Assembly (NCBI RefSeq): GCF_024346135.1
Contig: NZ_JAGQCJ010000006.1
Coordinates: forward strand, 1 to 64,000
Length of the DNA: 64,000 nucleotides
Origin: Cyanobium sp. CH-040
Lineage (GTDB): Bacteria > Cyanobacteriota > Cyanobacteriia > PCC-6307 > Cyanobiaceae
Direction: 5' to 3'
In this document: positions 54,308 to 62,528 of the stretch, in pieces
Position numbering within the stretch: position 1 is the stretch's first letter
Layout of the letters: every line of letters starts with the position of its first letter
Made by a program: the position numbers and the translations under genes
The notes under the pieces: model-generated
Databases searched by the model: none
Seen by the model: the letters and a program-made list of their open reading frames with translations, nothing else
What the model was told of the DNA's origin: nothing

Positions 54308-54504
54308 GGCCTGGGGCCGCAGCGCCGGAGCGGGCCGCGTCGGCGTCGGGGTGGCGGGTGGCGGCGGCGGTGCGGTGAGGGTCATGGCGGAGCGGTTCGG
54401 GGCGGGACGGTGGCGGGAGCAGCGGTCATTCTGCTCGGCGCTCCACCTACATTCCGCACAGCGGCAGCACAGCGCTGAGCGGCTACACACGCCCCCTGGC
54501 CCGG

Positions 54505-55128
54505 TTGATCGAGCAGTTCGAGCGGCTCCCGGGCATCGGGCCGCGCACGGCCCAGCGGCTGGCGCTGCACCTGCTGCGCCAGCCCGAGGAGCAGACCCGC
54601 AGCTTCGCCGAGGCCCTGCTGGCGGCCCGCAGCCAGGTGGGCCACTGCCGGCGCTGTTTCCATCTCTCGGCCGAACCGCTCTGCGAGATCTGCCGCAACC
54701 CCGAACGGGCCAACGGCCAGCTCTGCGTGGTGGCCGACTCCCGCGACCTGCTGGCCATGGAGCGCACGCGCGAGTACCACGGCGGTTACCACGTGCTGGG
54801 CGGTCTGATCTCGCCGATGGACGGCGTCGGACCGGAGCTGCTGCAGATCCAGTCCCTGGTGAGGCGGGTGGCCGGACAGGCCGATCCGGCGCTCCCCGAT
54901 TCCCCCACGGCCGATCCCCCCACGGCCGATTCCTCCATCGAGGAAGTGATCCTGGCCCTCACCCCCAGCGTCGAGGGCGACACCACCAGCCTCTACCTGG
55001 CCCGCCTGCTGCGGCCGTTCACGCGGGTGAGCCGCATCGCCTACGGCCTGCCGATGGGCAGCGAGCTGGAGTACGCCGACGAGGTGACCCTGGCGCGGGC
55101 CCTGGAGGGGCGCCGGCCCGTGGAGTGA
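54505..55128 (+). CDS. recR: recombination protein RecR with an internal insertion
   Basis: 207 residues from the TTG at 54505. HhH region ([17 protein letters not shown]), zinc finger C48-x2-C51...C60-x2-C63, and a Toprim domain ([33 protein letters not shown]). RecR loads RecA at gaps with RecF and RecO. Family-like residues [13 protein letters not shown] are encoded upstream of the TTG, so the true start may be near 54475 at a non-ATG codon. Residues about 124-143 are a Pro/Asp/Ala insertion with a [11 protein letters not shown] duplication, absent from typical RecR. Confidence 0.9.
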
Positions 55129-55130
55129 CC

Positions 55131-56783
55131 ATGGCGGCAGCAGACCCCACCACCCTCGAGCTGCTGGCGGGCTTTCTCGCCGGCCCCCCGGCCCCTCCGT
55201 CCGGGTCCGGGGGCCGCTCCTGGCCGCCGACGGCAGGCACCCTGCCGGACTTCGGCCAGCGGCTGGGGGGTGGGCGCAGCGCCAGGGAGCTGGTGACGGC
55301 CCTGCGCAGCTTCGGGCAGGTGATCTTCATCAACAATCCGCTGAGCGGCCTGCTGCTGCTGCTGGCGCTCTGCTGGCAGTCGGCCGCCATGGGCCTGCTC
55401 GCCGCCATCGGGGTGGTTGCCGCGACCCTCACGGCCGGCCTGATCGGCTGCGAGCGCAGCGTCCTCCGGAACGGCATCTACGGCTTCAACGGTGCCCTGG
55501 TGGGCTGTGCGCTGGGCGCCTTCGCCGCCATCGCCAGCGCCCCAGCCCTGCTGGTGTGGTCGCTGCCGGTGGCCGCCGGCGCCGCCCTCACCACGCTGCT
55601 GGTGGAGCACCAGGGGCGCTGGCTGGTGCGGCACCTCGGGCTGCCGCCCCTCACCCTGCCGTTCTGCCTGGTCACCTGGTTGCTGCTGGCCATGGTGGCG
55701 GGCTGGGGGCAGCCCGCCCTGGCCCTGGTGGAGAGCACCGCCATCCCCGCCTCGGCGCCGCAGTTGGCCCCCCTGCTGGCGGGCGTGGTGCGGGGCTTCG
55801 GCCAGGTGTTTCTCTGTCCGTCCCTGGCGAGCGGCAGCCTGGTGTTGCTGGCCGTGGCCGCCGCCAGCCCCCTGGCGGCCCTCACCGGTCTGGCCGGGGG
55901 ACTGGCCTCAGCCCTCACCGCCCTGGCGGGGGGGATGGATCCGGGGGCCGTGCACCAGGGGCTGGGCAGCTACAACGGCGTGCTCACCGCCATCGCCATC
56001 GGCGGCACCTTCTACGCCACCAGCCGCTCCAGCCTGCTGGTGGCGCTGCCGGCCGCCGCGGCCACCAGCGTGATCAGCCCGGCGCTGGCCGGCGGCCTGG
56101 CCACGATCAACCTGCCGCTGCTCACGCTTCCCTTCGTGCTCGCCACCATGGCCACCATGCTGGCCCTGCACCGCCTGCTGCCATCCCTGCTGCCGGTGGC
56201 GCTGCATGCGCAGCTCACCCCCGAGGAACACCGCCGGCGGCTTCTGGTGGCCCGCACGCTGCTGGGCGACTTCCGCCAGCGCCTGCGCCAGGCCGTGGGC
56301 AACGGGCGGCGGCTGGCGCTGCTGCCCCAGGCGGCCCGGCAGCAGCGGCGGCAGCTGGCCGCGCTGTTCGCCGCGCTCGACCGGGACGGCGACGGCAGTC
56401 TGAGCCTGGCCGAGCTGCACACCGCCCTGCTGGGCAGTCCGGCGCCAGCCGGCCCCGTAGGCACCGGCAGGCCAACCGCTGCCCAGCTCGGGGAGCTCTG
56501 GCAGCGCCTCGATCTCGATGGCGACGGCCGGGTGGATGCCGAGGAGTTCGCCGAGCTGATGCTGCGCCTGCAGCGCCTCCACGAGGGCCATGAGCGGCTG
56601 CTCACCTACCTGGCTCCGGTGGATGCCGACGGCAACGAGCGGCTCGATGCCGGCGAGCTCGACCGTCTGCTCGCCAGTGTGGGCCAGCGGCCCCTGGAGC
56701 CCGGCGAACGCCGCCGGCTCTTCGGCGCCCAGGGCGGCAGCCTCAGCTGGGGCCGCTTCATCGACCTGCTGCTGCTCACCTGA
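55131..56783 (+). CDS. urea channel (UT family) fused to a calmodulin-like EF-hand domain
   Basis: 550 residues. Residues about 50-355 form a urea transporter with two homologous halves: [43 protein letters not shown]; then [38 protein letters not shown]. The C-terminal 190 residues carry three canonical EF-hand loops: 417-428 ([12 protein letters not shown]), 461-472 ([12 protein letters not shown]), 498-509 ([12 protein letters not shown]), and a degenerate fourth near 531-543. Calcium may gate the channel (inference). It starts 2 nt after recR; a GTG at 55125 is an alternative start. Confidence 0.88.
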
Positions 56784-56800
56784 CACCCCCACCCGGATCG

Positions 56801-57718
56801 ATGCAACCCAGCCGCTCCCGCTACAGCGCCATTCCCCCCGCCGAACGGCTGCCGCCCTGGCTGCAGCGGCCGGTGGGCAACGCCTCCCGGCTGGCGGCGG
56901 TGCAGGGTGTGGTGAAGCAGCAGCGGCTGCACACGATCTGCGAGGAGGGGCGCTGCCCCAACCGCGCCGAGTGCTACGCCGGCGGCACCGCCACCTTCCT
57001 GCTGGGCGGGCCGGTGTGCACCCGCAGCTGTGCCTTCTGCCAGGTGGACAAGGGCCAGGCGCCGGTGCCGGTGGACGGCGCTGAGGCGGAGCGGGTGGCC
57101 GAGGCGGTGGCGGTGCTGGGGCTGCGCTATGTGGTGCTCACCGCCGTCGCCCGCGACGACCTGGCCGACCACGGCGCCGGGCTGTTCACGGCCACCATGG
57201 CGGCGATCCGGCGGCGCGACCCGGCCGTGGCCATCGAGGTGCTCACCCCCGACTTCTGGGGCGGCCACCGCGATCCGGCCGCGGGCGAGCGGGCCCAGCG
57301 GCAGCGGCTGGCCACGGTGCTGGCGGCGGAACCGGTCTGCTTCAACCACAACCTCGAGACGGTGGAGCGGCTGCAGGGGGAGGTGCGCCGCGGCGCCACC
57401 TACCGGCGTTCGCTGGGGCTGCTGGCGGCAGCCCGGGAGCTGGCGCCCCGGATCCCCACCAAGAGCGGCCTGATGCTGGGGCTGGGGGAGAGCCGCGCCG
57501 AGGTGATCGCCACCCTGGCCGACCTGCGCGCCGCTGGCTGCCAGCGCCTCACCCTGGGTCAGTACCTCAGGCCCTCCCTCGACCACCTGCCGGTGGCGCG
57601 CTACTGGCGGCCGGAGGAGTTCGATGAGCTGGGCGCCATCGCCCGGCAGATGGGCTTCGCCCAGGTGCGCAGCGGGCCGCTCGTACGCTCCAGCTACCAC
57701 GCCGGCGACGAGGGCTGA
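56801..57718 (+). CDS. lipA: lipoyl synthase LipA
   Basis: 305 residues. Radical-SAM enzyme that inserts sulfur into octanoyl groups. The auxiliary cluster motif [12 protein letters not shown] and radical-SAM motif CTRSCAFC are intact, followed by [24 protein letters not shown] and [13 protein letters not shown]; the C-terminal RSSYHA segment includes the Ser ligand of the auxiliary cluster. Normal length. Confidence 0.95.
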
Positions 57719-57726
57719 GCACGCCC

Positions 57727-58932
57727 ATGCAGATCCAGATCGGCGCCTTCGCCAGCTTCAACATCGCGATCATGGTGCTGGCGGCGGGCAAGCTGCTTCA
57801 CCGCCGGTTCCAGCCCCTGCGGGAGTTCAACATCCCCGAGCCCGTGGCCAGCGGTCTGCTGGTGAGCCTGCTTCTGGGCCTGGTGTATGCCGTGAGCGGC
57901 CTTGAGGTGGGCTTCGATCTGGCCGCCAGGGATTTCCTGCTGCTCTATTTCTTCGCCGGCATCGGCCTCAACGCCGACGTGCGCACCCTGCGGGCCGGCG
58001 GGCGGCCGCTGCTGATCCTGCTGGCCGTCACCGTCGCCTACATCGTGGTGCAGAACCTCACCGGTGTGGCCATGGCCAGCCTGCTGGGGCTGGATCCGCT
58101 GGTGGGACTGCTCACCGGCTCGGTGTCGCTGGTGGGCGGCCACGGCACGGCGATCGCCTGGGGGCCGCGCTTCGCCGAGCTGCACGGGGTGCAGAGCGCC
58201 GTGGAGATCGGTGCGGCCAGCGCCACCTTCGGGCTGATTCTCTCGGCCCTGATGGGCGGGCCGATCGCCCGGATTCTCATCCGCCGCGCTCCACCCGTGC
58301 CGGAGGCCGGGCGGGATCCGCTCCGGGATCCGATGGCGGAAACCGTCCAGCCCGGGCCGCCGATCACCAGCTTCCGGCTGATGGCCACCCTGTTCTGGCT
58401 GAATGTGTGCCTGGGCCTCGGCCAGCTGATCCACGACGCCCTGGAGGCGATGGGTCGCAACCTGCCCCTGTTCGTGTGCGCCCTGTTCGCCGGCATCCTG
58501 CTCACCAACACGATCCCGCGCCTGGTGCGGATCCCCTGGCCGGCCCACAGCGCAGCCCTGGCAGTGGTGTCGGATGCGGCGCTGGGGGTGTTCCTGGCGA
58601 TGTCGCTGATGAGCCTGCAGCTGTGGACGCTGCAGGGACTGGGTGGGCCGCTGCTGGCGATCCTGGCGGTGCAGTTCCTGATCGCCTTCGCCTACGCCCT
58701 GCTGGTGGTGTTCCGGGTGATGGGCCGCGACTACCAGGCCGCCGTGATCTGTGCGGGCTTCGGCGGCTTCTCGATGGGCGCCACCCCCACGGCGATGGCC
58801 AACATGGCCGCCGTCACCCAGACCTACGGGCCGGCGGCGAAGGCCTTCCTGATCCTGCCCCTGGTGTCAGGCTTCTTCGTGGACATCAGCAACTCGCTGG
58901 TGATCCAGCGCTTCATCAACTGGCTGGGCTGA
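57727..58932 (+). CDS. gltS: sodium/glutamate symporter GltS
   Basis: 401 residues, about ten transmembrane helices. Two inverted pore-loop motifs: GLLTGSVSLVGGHGTAIAWG and AAVICAGFGGFSMGATPTAM, hallmark of GltS. Conserved LYFFAGIGLNAD near residue 76. It imports glutamate with Na+ at the plasma membrane. It lies 8 nt after lipA and is followed by a hairpin. Confidence 0.93.
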   Translation: MQIQIGAFASFNIAIMVLAAGKLLHRRFQPLREFNIPEPVASGLLVSLLLGLVYAVSGLEVGFDLAARDFLLLYFFAGIGLNADVRTLRAGGRPLLILLAVTVAYIVVQNLTGVAMASLLGLDPLVGLLTGSVSLVGGHGTAIAWGPRFAELHGVQSAVEIGAASATFGLILSALMGGPIARILIRRAPPVPEAGRDPLRDPMAETVQPGPPITSFRLMATLFWLNVCLGLGQLIHDALEAMGRNLPLFVCALFAGILLTNTIPRLVRIPWPAHSAALAVVSDAALGVFLAMSLMSLQLWTLQGLGGPLLAILAVQFLIAFAYALLVVFRVMGRDYQAAVICAGFGGFSMGATPTAMANMAAVTQTYGPAAKAFLILPLVSGFFVDISNSLVIQRFINWLG

Positions 58933-58949: not shown

Positions 58950-58977
58950 ACGGACCAGGGTGAGAGCCCCGGTCCGT
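58950..58977. terminator. bidirectional hairpin between gltS and the subtilase
   Basis: ACGGACC (58950-58956) pairs with GGTCCGT (58971-58977), with an inner AGGG/CCCC that can extend the stem. It lies in the 44-nt gap between convergent stops and touches the last base of the subtilase stop. Probably a terminator for both, although no T-run follows. Confidence 0.55.
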
Positions 58978-60191
58978 CAGGGGGCCTGCACCAGGCCGTC
59001 GCCGCGGTCGAGCACATCCACCCCCGGGGCCAGGCCATTCAGGGTGCAGCTGGCGCGCAGACGGGCATTCACCCCGGCGGCGCTGACGGGAATGCCCATC
59101 TGACGGATGGCCTGCCACCAGAGGGCGGCAACGCCGGCCGCGTGGGGCGTGGCCATGCTGGTGCCGCTGAAGGCCACCAGCCCGCCGCCGGTGGCGGCGG
59201 ACACCACATCCACCCCCGGCGCCGCCAGCACCGGGTTGGTGTTGGAGAACGACGCCACCGAGAGACCGGCGGGGCCTTCCCCCAGCGCACCCACGGAGAT
59301 CACCCCCTGGGCAGCCGACGGCACCGCCGCGGAGAGTTCGTACCGTGGACGCTGGGATTCATTGCCGCTGGCGGCCACCACCACGGTGCCGCCGTTGAAG
59401 GCGGCCCTGGCTTCGACCATGCCGAGCAGCTGGTCGAACATGCGCAGGTTCATGCGATAGGCCTCCAGGGCGGCGCTGGTGGCCAGTTCCACCGGCCAGC
59501 CGGAGTCCACCAGACGCCTGGACATGCCGGGGAAGTCGAATCCCAGGGACATCGACAGCACCTGGGCGTTGTTGCGGGCGGCCCACTCCATGCCGTTGAA
59601 CAGCATCTCGGAACTGCCGCCGCCGTCGTCACCGAGCACCTTGCCGATCAGAGCCGTGGTCACTCCCGGAGCCACGCCGATCCGCTGCCCGTCCACATCC
59701 CGGCCGAGGATCGTGCCGGCGCAGTGGGTGCCATGGCCGTTGGCATCGCCGTTGCCCGAACCGGAGAAGTCCTCCTCGGTGATGGTCACGCCGGAGAAGG
59801 CGGGATGGGCCCGGTCGATGCCGGTGTCCAGCACCGCCACGGTGACGCCGGCCCCGTCGAACCGGCTGCGGTCCGCGCCCACGGCGCGCACCCCCCAGGT
59901 GGCTCCGGCCGTGGCGGCGGTTGCCGTTGCGGTGGAGCGGCTTGCGGGCTCGATCAGCCGGGTTGGAATGGCGCGGGCCACGCTGAGCACGTCGGGATCC
60001 CGGGCCGCCTCCCGGAGGTCGGCGGCGTCGAGCCGCTCGAGAGTGACCGAGGGCTCGGGGGGCAGATCGGCGAAGGGCGTGACCCCGAAACTCTCCAGCC
60101 CCGGATACGGCCGTGACGGAACCGAGAGACCACTGGCGCGACGCCCCTGATTGAGATCCCTAAGAAGAATGAAGTCCTGTGAAGTACTCAT
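58977..60191 (-). CDS. S8-family serine protease (subtilase) without signal peptide
   Basis: 404 residues. Catalytic triad D122 (AVLDTGID), H153 (NGHGTHCAGTI) and S345 (FSGTSMATPH), with oxyanion N277 (AASGN). The first 90 residues look like an inhibitor-type propeptide (PSVTLERLDAADLREAARDP; DVLSVARAI). No signal peptide is visible, so it may work in the cytoplasm or use another export route. It is divergent from the protease-nuclease fusion, with 204 bases between starts, which hints at joint regulation. Confidence 0.9.
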   Translation of the reverse strand: MSTSQDFILLRDLNQGRRASGLSVPSRPYPGLESFGVTPFADLPPEPSVTLERLDAADLREAARDPDVLSVARAIPTRLIEPASRSTATATAATAGATWGVRAVGADRSRFDGAGVTVAVLDTGIDRAHPAFSGVTITEEDFSGSGNGDANGHGTHCAGTILGRDVDGQRIGVAPGVTTALIGKVLGDDGGGSSEMLFNGMEWAARNNAQVLSMSLGFDFPGMSRRLVDSGWPVELATSAALEAYRMNLRMFDQLLGMVEARAAFNGGTVVVAASGNESQRPRYELSAAVPSAAQGVISVGALGEGPAGLSVASFSNTNPVLAAPGVDVVSAATGGGLVAFSGTSMATPHAAGVAALWWQAIRQMGIPVSAAGVNARLRASCTLNGLAPGVDVLDRGDGLVQAP

Positions 60192-60395
60192 GCGTCGACA
60201 CCACCAGCCTTGCTTGATGTTCAGCTCCTAGCCATGGTGAGAGGACAACGTCAAGTCACCTGCAGGCACAACAAGCAAAGGGTCCCGGCAGAATCCATCC
60301 CGCCTAATCCGCCCCAGAAATGGAACACAGGAGACGGTGATCTGGAATACATCAGCCTGGCTTGAATTCGGCTCCTGGTGCAGGGATCACTGCTC

Positions 60396-62528
60396 ATGCC
60401 CGGCCGTGCCAATCCGCTCAGCATCTCCGCACACCATGATCAAGCTGCGAGCGACACCATGACGATCGACCCGACCTTCAGGGCGCTGCTCGATGACACA
60501 CGGGCCCGCTACGACCAGTCCCGCAGCCGGCGGGAGCGGCACATCGCCCTGATCGAGGAGGGGCAGGTGGCCAAGGCCAATCCCACCTCGCTGGTGGAGG
60601 CCCGGCTGGCGCGCATCCGCGGCGGCCGGGGCGCCTCGAGCGCCTCGGTGGAGCGCGGACTGGAGCGGGTGCTGGGCCGCAATGACCTGATGAGCGTGCG
60701 CTTCCTGGAGGACGGCTGGCAGACCTCGCGGGCCGTGGCCCGCATCCAGATCGGCCAGGCGGGCGGGGCCGGAGGCGGCTACGGCACCGGCTTCCTGGTG
60801 GGGCCAAGGTTGCTTCTCACCAACCATCACGTGCTGCCCAGCGCCGAGCTGGCGGCCATCAGCCGGGCGGAGTTCGACTATCAGCTGCGCCTCGATGGCC
60901 AGCTCAGGCCTGGCACCCTGGTCGAGCTGGATCCCGCCGGTTTCTATCTCAGCGACCGCGATCTCGACTATGCCCTGGTCGGCGTCAGGGATCATCCCGA
61001 ACTGGCCAGCTTCGGGTGGATACCGCTGATCGAAGAGCAGGGCAAACTGCTGGTGGGGGAATGGGTGAACATCATCCAGCATCCCAACGGTGAACCGAAA
61101 CAACTGGCGATCCGGGAGAACCGGGTGGTGGATGAACTCGACCGCCATCTTCATTACCTCACCGACACGGCCCCCGGCTCCTCCGGCTCGCCGGTGTTCA
61201 ACGACCAGTGGGAAGTGGTGGCGCTGCACCGTTCCGGCGTTCCGGCAACCGATGCCAGTGGCGGGATCGTGGCCATTGATGGTCGCCCCTGGGAGCCGTA
61301 CATGGGGGAGCACCGCATCAAGTGGGTCGCCAACGAAGGGGTGCGGGTCAGCCAGCTGGTGGCCCACATCCGCAGCCGGGCCACGCCGGGATCTCCCTGG
61401 GAGTCCCAGGTCCGGAGCCTGTTCAGAACGCCGCCGCCCGCGCAGGCCCCCCTGACGGTGCAGAACAAACCGGCATCGACGCCCACGGGTGGCGTTCCGG
61501 AAGCCGACCAGGGGCAGGCGGCCACCTGGACGATTCCGCTCCAGGTGAGTGTGCGGCTGGCCTGGCCCCCGGACGGCGGCCCGCGGCCCCCCACCAGTGC
61601 AGCTCGGGCCGGCGACCTGGCTGGGCACCTGGCTCCCCAGTCTCCCGAGCTGCCGCCGGCGGACGTCGAACCATCCGCCTCCATGCAGCTGCGGGAGGCG
61701 CTGGGCGAGCTGGCCCAGGCCCGGCAGCGGCCCTACTACGACGAGGAGGCGGACGCCGCCGCGATCGAGGCCTACTACCGGCCGATCGATGCCGGGGCCG
61801 GATCCGGCGCGCTGGCGACGGCCCTGGGAGAGCTGGTGCGCAGCACCCACCAGCGGCCCGTGTCCTATGCGCCTGCTCGCCAGCTCTATCCCTGGATCGA
61901 TCTGCATCCCGACCTGCGTCTGCGCAGCATCTACTCAGGCCAGGACTTCGACCCGGAGACGATCATCCGCGAGGACTTCCGCATCGAAGCCGCCCGCAGC
62001 CTGAGGCTGCAGGAGTTCAGGGCAAGGGAGCAGCAGCTGTCTGAGCAACAGCTGGCCCTGGAGGAGGCGCTCCTGGAGACGGCGCTTCCCTACAACTGCG
62101 AGCACGTGGTGCCGCAGTCCTGGTTCGACCGGCGGGAACCGATGCGCGGCGACCTGCACCACCTGTTCACCTGCGAGATGCGCTGCAACAGCTTCCGAGG
62201 CAACTGTCCCTACATCAGCTTCGCGGACCCTCGGGAGGCCGTGATGGACCAGTGCGGCAGGCGGGAGGGACGCGACTTCGAGCCCCAGCGCGGGCGTGGC
62301 ACCGTGGCCCGGGCGGTGCTCTACTTCCTGCTCCGCTACCCGGGGATGGTGGGCGACAAGCCGGGCGAGATGCCCCTTGAGCGGCTTCCCACCCTGATCG
62401 CTTGGCACCGGGAGGAGCCGCCGGACCTCTACGAACGCCACCGCAACGCGGCCATCCAGGCCGCCCAGGGCAACCGCAATCCTCTCATCGACCGGCCCGA
62501 ATGGGCTGAGCGCATCACCTTCCGCTGA
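60396..62528 (+). CDS. trypsin-like protease / endonuclease I fusion protein
   Basis: 710 residues. N-terminal charged helix (about 25-95), then a trypsin-like domain with catalytic His (LLLTNHHVLP, about 145), Asp (LSDRDLDYALVGV, about 191) and Ser (TAPGSSGSPVF, about 263). After a Pro-rich linker (345-425) comes a His-Me-finger endonuclease I domain: NCEHVVPQSWF (about 567-577), GDLHHLFTCEMRCNSFRGNC and RGRGTVARAVLYFLLRYP. No signal peptide. ATG 60396 has AGGGA 9 nt upstream; GTG 60378 and ATG 60459 are alternatives. A protease-activated nuclease or effector is plausible (inference). Confidence 0.85.
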   Translation: MPGRANPLSISAHHDQAASDTMTIDPTFRALLDDTRARYDQSRSRRERHIALIEEGQVAKANPTSLVEARLARIRGGRGASSASVERGLERVLGRNDLMSVRFLEDGWQTSRAVARIQIGQAGGAGGGYGTGFLVGPRLLLTNHHVLPSAELAAISRAEFDYQLRLDGQLRPGTLVELDPAGFYLSDRDLDYALVGVRDHPELASFGWIPLIEEQGKLLVGEWVNIIQHPNGEPKQLAIRENRVVDELDRHLHYLTDTAPGSSGSPVFNDQWEVVALHRSGVPATDASGGIVAIDGRPWEPYMGEHRIKWVANEGVRVSQLVAHIRSRATPGSPWESQVRSLFRTPPPAQAPLTVQNKPASTPTGGVPEADQGQAATWTIPLQVSVRLAWPPDGGPRPPTSAARAGDLAGHLAPQSPELPPADVEPSASMQLREALGELAQARQRPYYDEEADAAAIEAYYRPIDAGAGSGALATALGELVRSTHQRPVSYAPARQLYPWIDLHPDLRLRSIYSGQDFDPETIIREDFRIEAARSLRLQEFRAREQQLSEQQLALEEALLETALPYNCEHVVPQSWFDRREPMRGDLHHLFTCEMRCNSFRGNCPYISFADPREAVMDQCGRREGRDFEPQRGRGTVARAVLYFLLRYPGMVGDKPGEMPLERLPTLIAWHREEPPDLYERHRNAAIQAAQGNRNPLIDRPEWAERITFR

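Follow-up and report, generated by a model that had tools for sequence, protein, structure and literature searches.

A urea transporter-type channel fused to a calmodulin-like EF-hand domain, and linked to an EF-hand arginase, in picocyanobacteria

Urea channels of the UT/SLC14 family, among them UT-B, UT-A and the transporter of D. vulgaris (3k3f), are regarded as passive; the termini of known members lie in the cytosol, and none of these structures bears an EF-hand tail. In a further arrangement, found in Bacteroidota and some cyanobacteria and here called UT-M23, the channel is followed by a soluble C-terminal peptidase M23 domain. Calmodulin and troponin C each carry two pairs of EF-hands; canonical EF-hands can sense about 0.2-4 µM Ca2+, and EF-hands can also be structural. 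In cyanobacteria, Ca2+ is described as rising from about 0.2 to up to 4 µM upon light-to-dark shifts and stress, and the only known Ca2+ sensor in Anabaena is said to be CSE, an EF-hand protein of filamentous cyanobacteria that is tied to carbon/nitrogen balance (PMC7065334). The gene analysed here, termed UT-EF, is likewise cyanobacterial and encodes a UT channel that ends in EF-hands; CSE differs in being small and soluble, with neither a transport nor an enzyme domain. A search of the open-licence literature found no description of a UT joined to EF-hands or of an EF-hand arginase, and the novelty lies in the combination of known kinds of protein (UT, EF-hand and arginase).

The window (the whole 64,000-nucleotide stretch of Cyanobium sp. 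CH-040 DNA that was analysed) contains UT-EF at 55131-56783 of the plus strand, as one open reading frame of 550 amino acids plus stop that encodes a urea transporter domain and four EF-hands (three calcium-type loops and one degenerate), an assignment resting on the frame, Pfam and orthologs. A Shine-Dalgarno-like GGAG (55122..55125, plus strand) was read in the sequence within the 3' end of recR, 5 nt before the ATG, and scans of 54400-57800 found 0 promoters and 0 terminators, about what shuffled sequences give. The channel domain, residues 56-345 (55296..56165, plus strand), includes an NNPLSG motif and matches PF03253 over profile positions 3-290 of 292 (E 1.9e-70, 237.8 bits vs a cut-off of 25); it is the sole UT match in the 2.9-Mb genome. 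It falls below the equivalog level of the NCBIfam model TIGR03441, urea_trans_yut (182.4 vs 274.6 bits). Since the EF-hand model PF13499 (EF-hand_7) matches residues 407-477 of the same 550-residue frame (E 1.1e-13, 51.7 bits vs a cut-off of 30), the proposal of the sequence-only reading that a complete UT channel is fused to an EF-hand tail is borne out.

The four hands of that tail span residues 402-550. Loop 1 occupies residues 417-428 (56379..56414), loop 2 residues 461-472 (56511..56546) and loop 3 residues 498-509 (56622..56657), all on the plus strand and all at the positions proposed earlier; the description of the three as canonical fails for loop 3, in which position 6 is Glu and which is thus semi-canonical. 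The loop of the fourth hand, placed by the structure model and by reading of the loop at about residues 532-543 (56724..56759, plus strand), has no acidic residue, in agreement with the earlier view of two EF-hand pairs with a degenerate fourth hand. The last membrane helix and the EF-hands are separated by a helix of residues 364-389 (56220..56297, plus strand), recognized in the AF2 model and basic by charge count (7 K/R, 3 D/E), for which a role as a regulatory linker may be envisaged.

The AF2 model of UT-EF, built from 16 sequences (the window and the genome_contigs collection), has a pLDDT of 76.0 and a pTM of 0.71, with residues 496-501 below 50. Its membrane domain corresponds in whole to those of human UT-B (Z 43.1), UT-A (Z 43) and the D. 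vulgaris UT (Z 41.8), with which it has in common the NPLSG motif and the Gln and Thr positions, and it shows about 28-30% identity, at Z 43, to proven urea channels. Fold, motif and profile thus place the protein in the UT/SLC14 family, with urea as its predicted substrate. Residues 394-487 superpose on troponin C at 1.6 Å over 86 residues (Z 11.8), whereas matches to two-lobe calmodulins have an rmsd of about 8 Å or more, as hinged lobes would give; Foldseek concurs on both families. The likeness to calmodulin and troponin C extends to the two EF pairs; unlike them, the tail is part of a membrane channel, its fourth hand lacks ligands and its third loop is semi-canonical, so that the four canonical calcium loops by which calmodulin is defined are not found in UT-EF. 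Binding of Ca2+ by the tail is nevertheless predicted from its loop sequences.

In the genome_contigs collection, 20 loci were picked out as related by a pattern scan, and 32 of 300 sampled genomes from the Cyanobiaceae, the family of the window, match UT-EF. A single open frame runs over channel and EF-hands in 24 of the 32; in two genomes (G203 and G279) the gene is cut by contig ends, and in another six (G023, G148, G198, G208, G221 and G291) it is in pieces or left as a fragment, which suggests decay of the gene in certain strains or assemblies. The same architecture recurs in 30 non-redundant full-length frames, the window's included, a set confined to frames that run from residue 60 or earlier to residue 545 or later, with duplicates removed (L006, L014, L018, L020, L021, L025, L043 and L048-L051 fall outside it). 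Asp at position 1 and Glu at position 12 are invariant in loops 1, 2 and 3 throughout the 30, as is Gly at position 6 of loop 2; position 6 of loop 3, Glu in the window's protein, is Gly in three orthologs, and position 3 of loop 1 is neither acidic nor Asn in one. Among the residues that we take to be the pore-motif positions of UT channels (Q63, F66, Q225, T175, T332 and the NPLSG motif), P70, S72, G73 and Q63 are kept in 30/30, F66 and Q225 in 29/30, T175 in 28/30 and T332 in 24/30. Ratios of dN to dS are below 1 in both domains (EF 0.09-0.64, UT 0.07-0.49; Nei-Gojobori, 13 close and non-independent pairs). One further locus of the genome G230 (L169:1243-1950, plus strand) holds a 236-amino-acid frame, made of a UT end and EF-hands, that resembles a truncated second copy and may be either a remnant or a calmodulin-like protein in its own right; and a contig titled as a Bifidobacterium breve MAG (L019) carries a cyanobacterial UT-EF with the arginase described below, the bin probably being mislabelled or contaminated.

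Across the phylum, 13 of 386 genomes pass the UT cut-off: eight belong to the window's family (itself included), three to the family f7, and two have another C-terminal region (L066 and L067, with M23 identified by Pfam for L066). The f7 proteins (L058-L060) were read as EF-fused UTs, with Pfam run on L058. A tree of 50 UT domains groups all 33 EF-fused rows on one side of a branch with support of 100/98, separate from 10 UT-M23 rows (labelled on the basis of frame length and of L066) and 7 plain channels, one of which (L078) falls among the M23 rows; because the EF-fused rows form one clade, the tree fits a single fusion event in cyanobacteria. Carriage by viruses is unseen among 22 pattern stretches of the viral_contigs collection, none of which contains a relative. 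Among plasmids there were two records, from Roseomonas and Sinorhizobium; the Roseomonas protein is a plain 340-amino-acid UT downstream of urease genes.

The premise that the urea transporters known from bacteria stop at the end of their membrane part did not survive a survey of other UT proteins. The UT cut-off is passed by 29 of 247 genomes of Bacteroidota (the phylum of L020), and peptidase M23 was found in 19 of the 24 UT proteins scanned (23 from Bacteroidota, plus L066), none of which matched an EF-hand family at E 0.001; the Bacteroidota alignment holds 23 of 24 new loci, L076 having been dropped for a broken frame, and five matching genomes are without a locus. The arrangement of UT then peptidase M23 (L066:310-2460, minus strand; L067; L080-L097) is common in Bacteroidota and occurs in some cyanobacteria. 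Like UT-EF, such proteins (L066 and L080, for example) consist of a UT and then a soluble C-terminal domain; they differ in the nature of that domain and in their place in the UT tree. The membrane side of the M23 domain is a puzzle for UT topology, and the existence of these proteins makes it questionable that the C-terminus of UTs is always cytosolic.

In G230, UT-EF is preceded by a gene that overruns its start and encodes a 492-residue protein, here called EF-arginase, with N-terminal EF-hands and an arginase domain at residues 169-468 (PF00491, 171.4 bits vs a cut-off of 22). Its best NCBIfam model is the arginase TIGR01229 (E 5.6e-60), the best of the listed families although its equivalog level is missed (203.2 vs 227.6 bits), and its best PDB match is the Thermus arginase 2eiv (E 1.2e-43), with which it has the arginase domain in common and from which it differs by an N-terminal EF-hand region of about 165 residues. 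GDHS, DAHAD and D419/D421, presumably the metal-ligand His/Asp motifs, are invariant in 11/11 EF-arginase rows. In 53 chosen genomes searched with PF00491, this divergent arginase class was found in UT-EF genomes, and the 18 chosen genomes without UT-EF held only stronger-scoring ureohydrolases of two other classes. An AF2 model of EF-arginase from 6 rows was poor (pLDDT 52.7, pTM 0.36) and was not used.

Searches with an EF-arginase model (A3, from 11 of 14 EF-arginases), in which at most 4-5 candidates per genome were scored and short remnants such as those of G076 and G222 stood outside the counts, found the enzyme in 16 of the 32 UT-EF genomes vs 0 of the 268 others of the Cyanobiaceae sample (E <= 1e-60; Fisher p 4e-18, a value that ignores relatedness, EF-arginase occurring in 4/59 genera). 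In 16/16 it is encoded by the next gene upstream of UT-EF on the same strand (as at L099:8565-11646, minus strand), and in the 15 of 16 loci with a Met, the start of UT-EF may lie between 32 nt upstream and 185 nt downstream of the arginase stop, alternative starts being possible; six loci have overlaps of 4-11 nt. The frame matches the model end to end in 12 of the 16; incomplete ones start at a contig end (G212), are frameshifted (G075) or have no EF part (G005). In G205 (L112:10926-14224, minus strand) an insertion of about 1.75 kb interrupts the enzyme gene, upstream of an intact UT-EF. A search of 354 genomes of the phylum (E <= 1e-45) gave nine EF-arginase matches, eight of them in UT-EF genomes; in one f7 genome (G486) the enzyme is on a different contig from UT-EF, and it was not seen in other f7 genomes. 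The ninth, in G497, a genome outside the set of UT matches, is an arginase region with a stop and no EF part. The EF domains of channel and enzyme show only weak similarity (E about 1e-4 to 1e-5 for arginase queries on the loci), and a close common origin was rejected. The architecture of UT-EF, its conservation and its arginase linkage are near certain, and the link between calcium and nitrogen proposed earlier is strengthened by the EF-hand arginase that adjoins UT-EF in relatives. About 2 kb from the pair in G230 lies another UrtA-like gene, the second of that genome (C2:1034101-1035192; 444 bits, under the cut-off).

In the window, recR (54505..55128, plus strand; Pfam RecR and Toprim domains, and synteny) ends 2 bp upstream of UT-EF, and a radical SAM gene (56801..57718, plus strand; PF04055), by our reading a predicted lipoyl synthase, lies directly downstream, as it does in L002 and L100. 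The order in the window and in L002 is recR, UT-EF, radical SAM gene, and in G062 (L100) it is recR, EF-arginase, UT-EF, radical SAM gene; no arginase remnant was found in the window. Synechococcus sp. BSA11S (L003), of the window's subclade, has a deleted arginase of which residues 9-97 (the EF part) and 382-492 (the end) are left in front of an intact UT-EF, G222 holds broken arginase pieces with a stop, and L111, from a genome without arginase (G140), has the same flanks as the EF-arginase loci L010, L101 and L112. Because of this synteny, these remnants and these shared flanks, the pair is probably an ancient feature of Cyanobiaceae, in which the enzyme would have been lost repeatedly and the channel kept; the window's strain would then have lost its arginase rather than never having had it, and gain of the enzyme in some lineages is the lesser possibility. 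Other sources of urea may remain in that strain, because its genome encodes urease, UrtA, a ureohydrolase close to PDB 7esr (769 bits), presumably a guanidine hydrolase, and a second PF00491 protein. Urease is present in 31/32 UT-EF genomes vs 195/268 others (p 8e-4, a weak association, since reduced or incomplete genomes lower the base rate); UrtA scores above its cut-off in 39 of 43 selected genomes regardless of whether UT-EF is present, and is therefore uninformative. A linked urease or urt operon was sought around UT-EF and not seen: of the genes in 21 neighbourhoods, only UT-EF, its antisense shadow and EF-arginase recur in at least five.

Matches to PF13499 were compared across seven genomes. 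In the window's genome UT-EF is the sole match, and a congener without UT-EF (G030) has zero; G045 and G101 have three matches apiece, every one of them within UT-EF or EF-arginase, and G062, G102 and G230 have further matches besides those two proteins. With the shorter model PF13405, the window's genome shows additional weak matches (C1:409996 and C27:65714), so that other single hands may exist there.

The best explanation of these observations, to which the sequence comparisons lend about an even chance, is that UT-EF would be a Ca2+-gated urea channel and one half of a pair with EF-arginase, with Ca2+ setting arginine breakdown and urea movement together; Ca2+ regulation of flux through UT-EF, taken by itself, is a matter of about one in two. 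The calmodulin-like domain, likely on the cytosolic side to judge from the basic linker and the topology of known UTs, would bind Ca2+ and thereby change urea permeability: Ca2+-loaded lobes would grip or release the helix of residues 364-389, which, placed between pore and lobes, resembles a calmodulin target lying next to a calmodulin of its own, and the cytosolic mouth of the pore would shift, with opening or closing alike possible. Gating and the direction of flux are thus predictions. The upstream enzyme would convert arginine to ornithine and urea, UT-EF would move the urea, and one Ca2+ signal would serve both; since the arginase may answer the same signal, control of arginine-derived urea is the natural reading, with the arginase gone and the channel staying in the window's strain. 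Conserved loops, one clade, dN/dS below 1, a UT fold with an EF lobe, the arginase linkage, the company of urease and known Ca2+ transients speak for this explanation; against it stand the lack of Gly6 in loop 3, the exception at position 3 of loop 1, the half of UT-EF genomes without arginase, the 6/32 broken genes, the non-adjacent or absent pair in f7, and the equivalog cut-offs missed by both proteins.

The main rival holds that the EF domains serve docking rather than gating, recruiting EF-arginase or another partner in a Ca2+-dependent manner so that urea is made at the mouth of a pore that stays open. That two EF-bearing proteins, each with one degenerate hand, come from adjoining and often overlapping genes would suit such an arrangement, but 16 of the 32 UT-EF genomes, the window's included, keep the tail and its conserved loops with no detectable EF-arginase, and docking is judged unlikely. 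The departures of loop 3 and hand 4 from the canonical pattern, together with the structural part that EF-hands can play, would also agree with a tail in which bound Ca2+ only stabilises the protein or aids its trafficking, with no signalling; this seems distinctly unlikely in view of the invariance of Asp1 and Glu12 in three loops of 30/30 orthologs and of the second urea-pathway protein, with EF-hands of its own, that adjoins UT-EF. A pore that mainly conducts something other than urea (ammonia, water or other amides) under regulation by the EF tail is improbable: the score below the TIGR03441 cut-off and the presence in the phylum of UT relatives without a known substrate (L066 and L067) leave room for it, but the identity and fold similarity to proven urea channels, the conserved motif residues and the company of arginase and urease all argue for urea. 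The joining of two adjacent genes by a sequencing error or missed stop, which the sequence-only reading had named as its own refutation, is scarcely credible, with an uninterrupted fusion in 30 non-redundant orthologs and nothing found in its favour.

Little is known of the proteins on which Ca2+ acts in cyanobacteria, and UT-EF and EF-arginase are two concrete, assayable and genetically linked candidates in one pathway. A dedicated calcium-switched urea pathway in some picocyanobacteria, in which a cytosolic Ca2+ rise at dusk, under stress or upon a nitrogen shift would act at once on the EF-hand enzyme, which would turn arginine stores into ornithine and urea, and on the EF-hand channel, which would open or close the membrane to that urea, so that nitrogen is released or recaptured, is a tentative extension of the gated-channel reading and is less likely than not to hold in full. 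It could be a main protein target of calcium signalling in G045, G101 and the window's genome, because matches to the EF-hand pair lie only in UT-EF and EF-arginase in the first two and only in UT-EF in the third. Were this pathway to exist, it would add calcium gating to a family of channels considered passive, and picocyanobacteria that release or recapture urea would be of consequence for the exchange of nitrogen in lakes and seas.

Elsewhere in the window, downstream of the radical SAM gene, a trypsin-like peptidase domain is fused to Endonuclease I (60378-62528, plus strand), an odd pairing that adjoins a subtilase gene on the minus strand (58977-60191).
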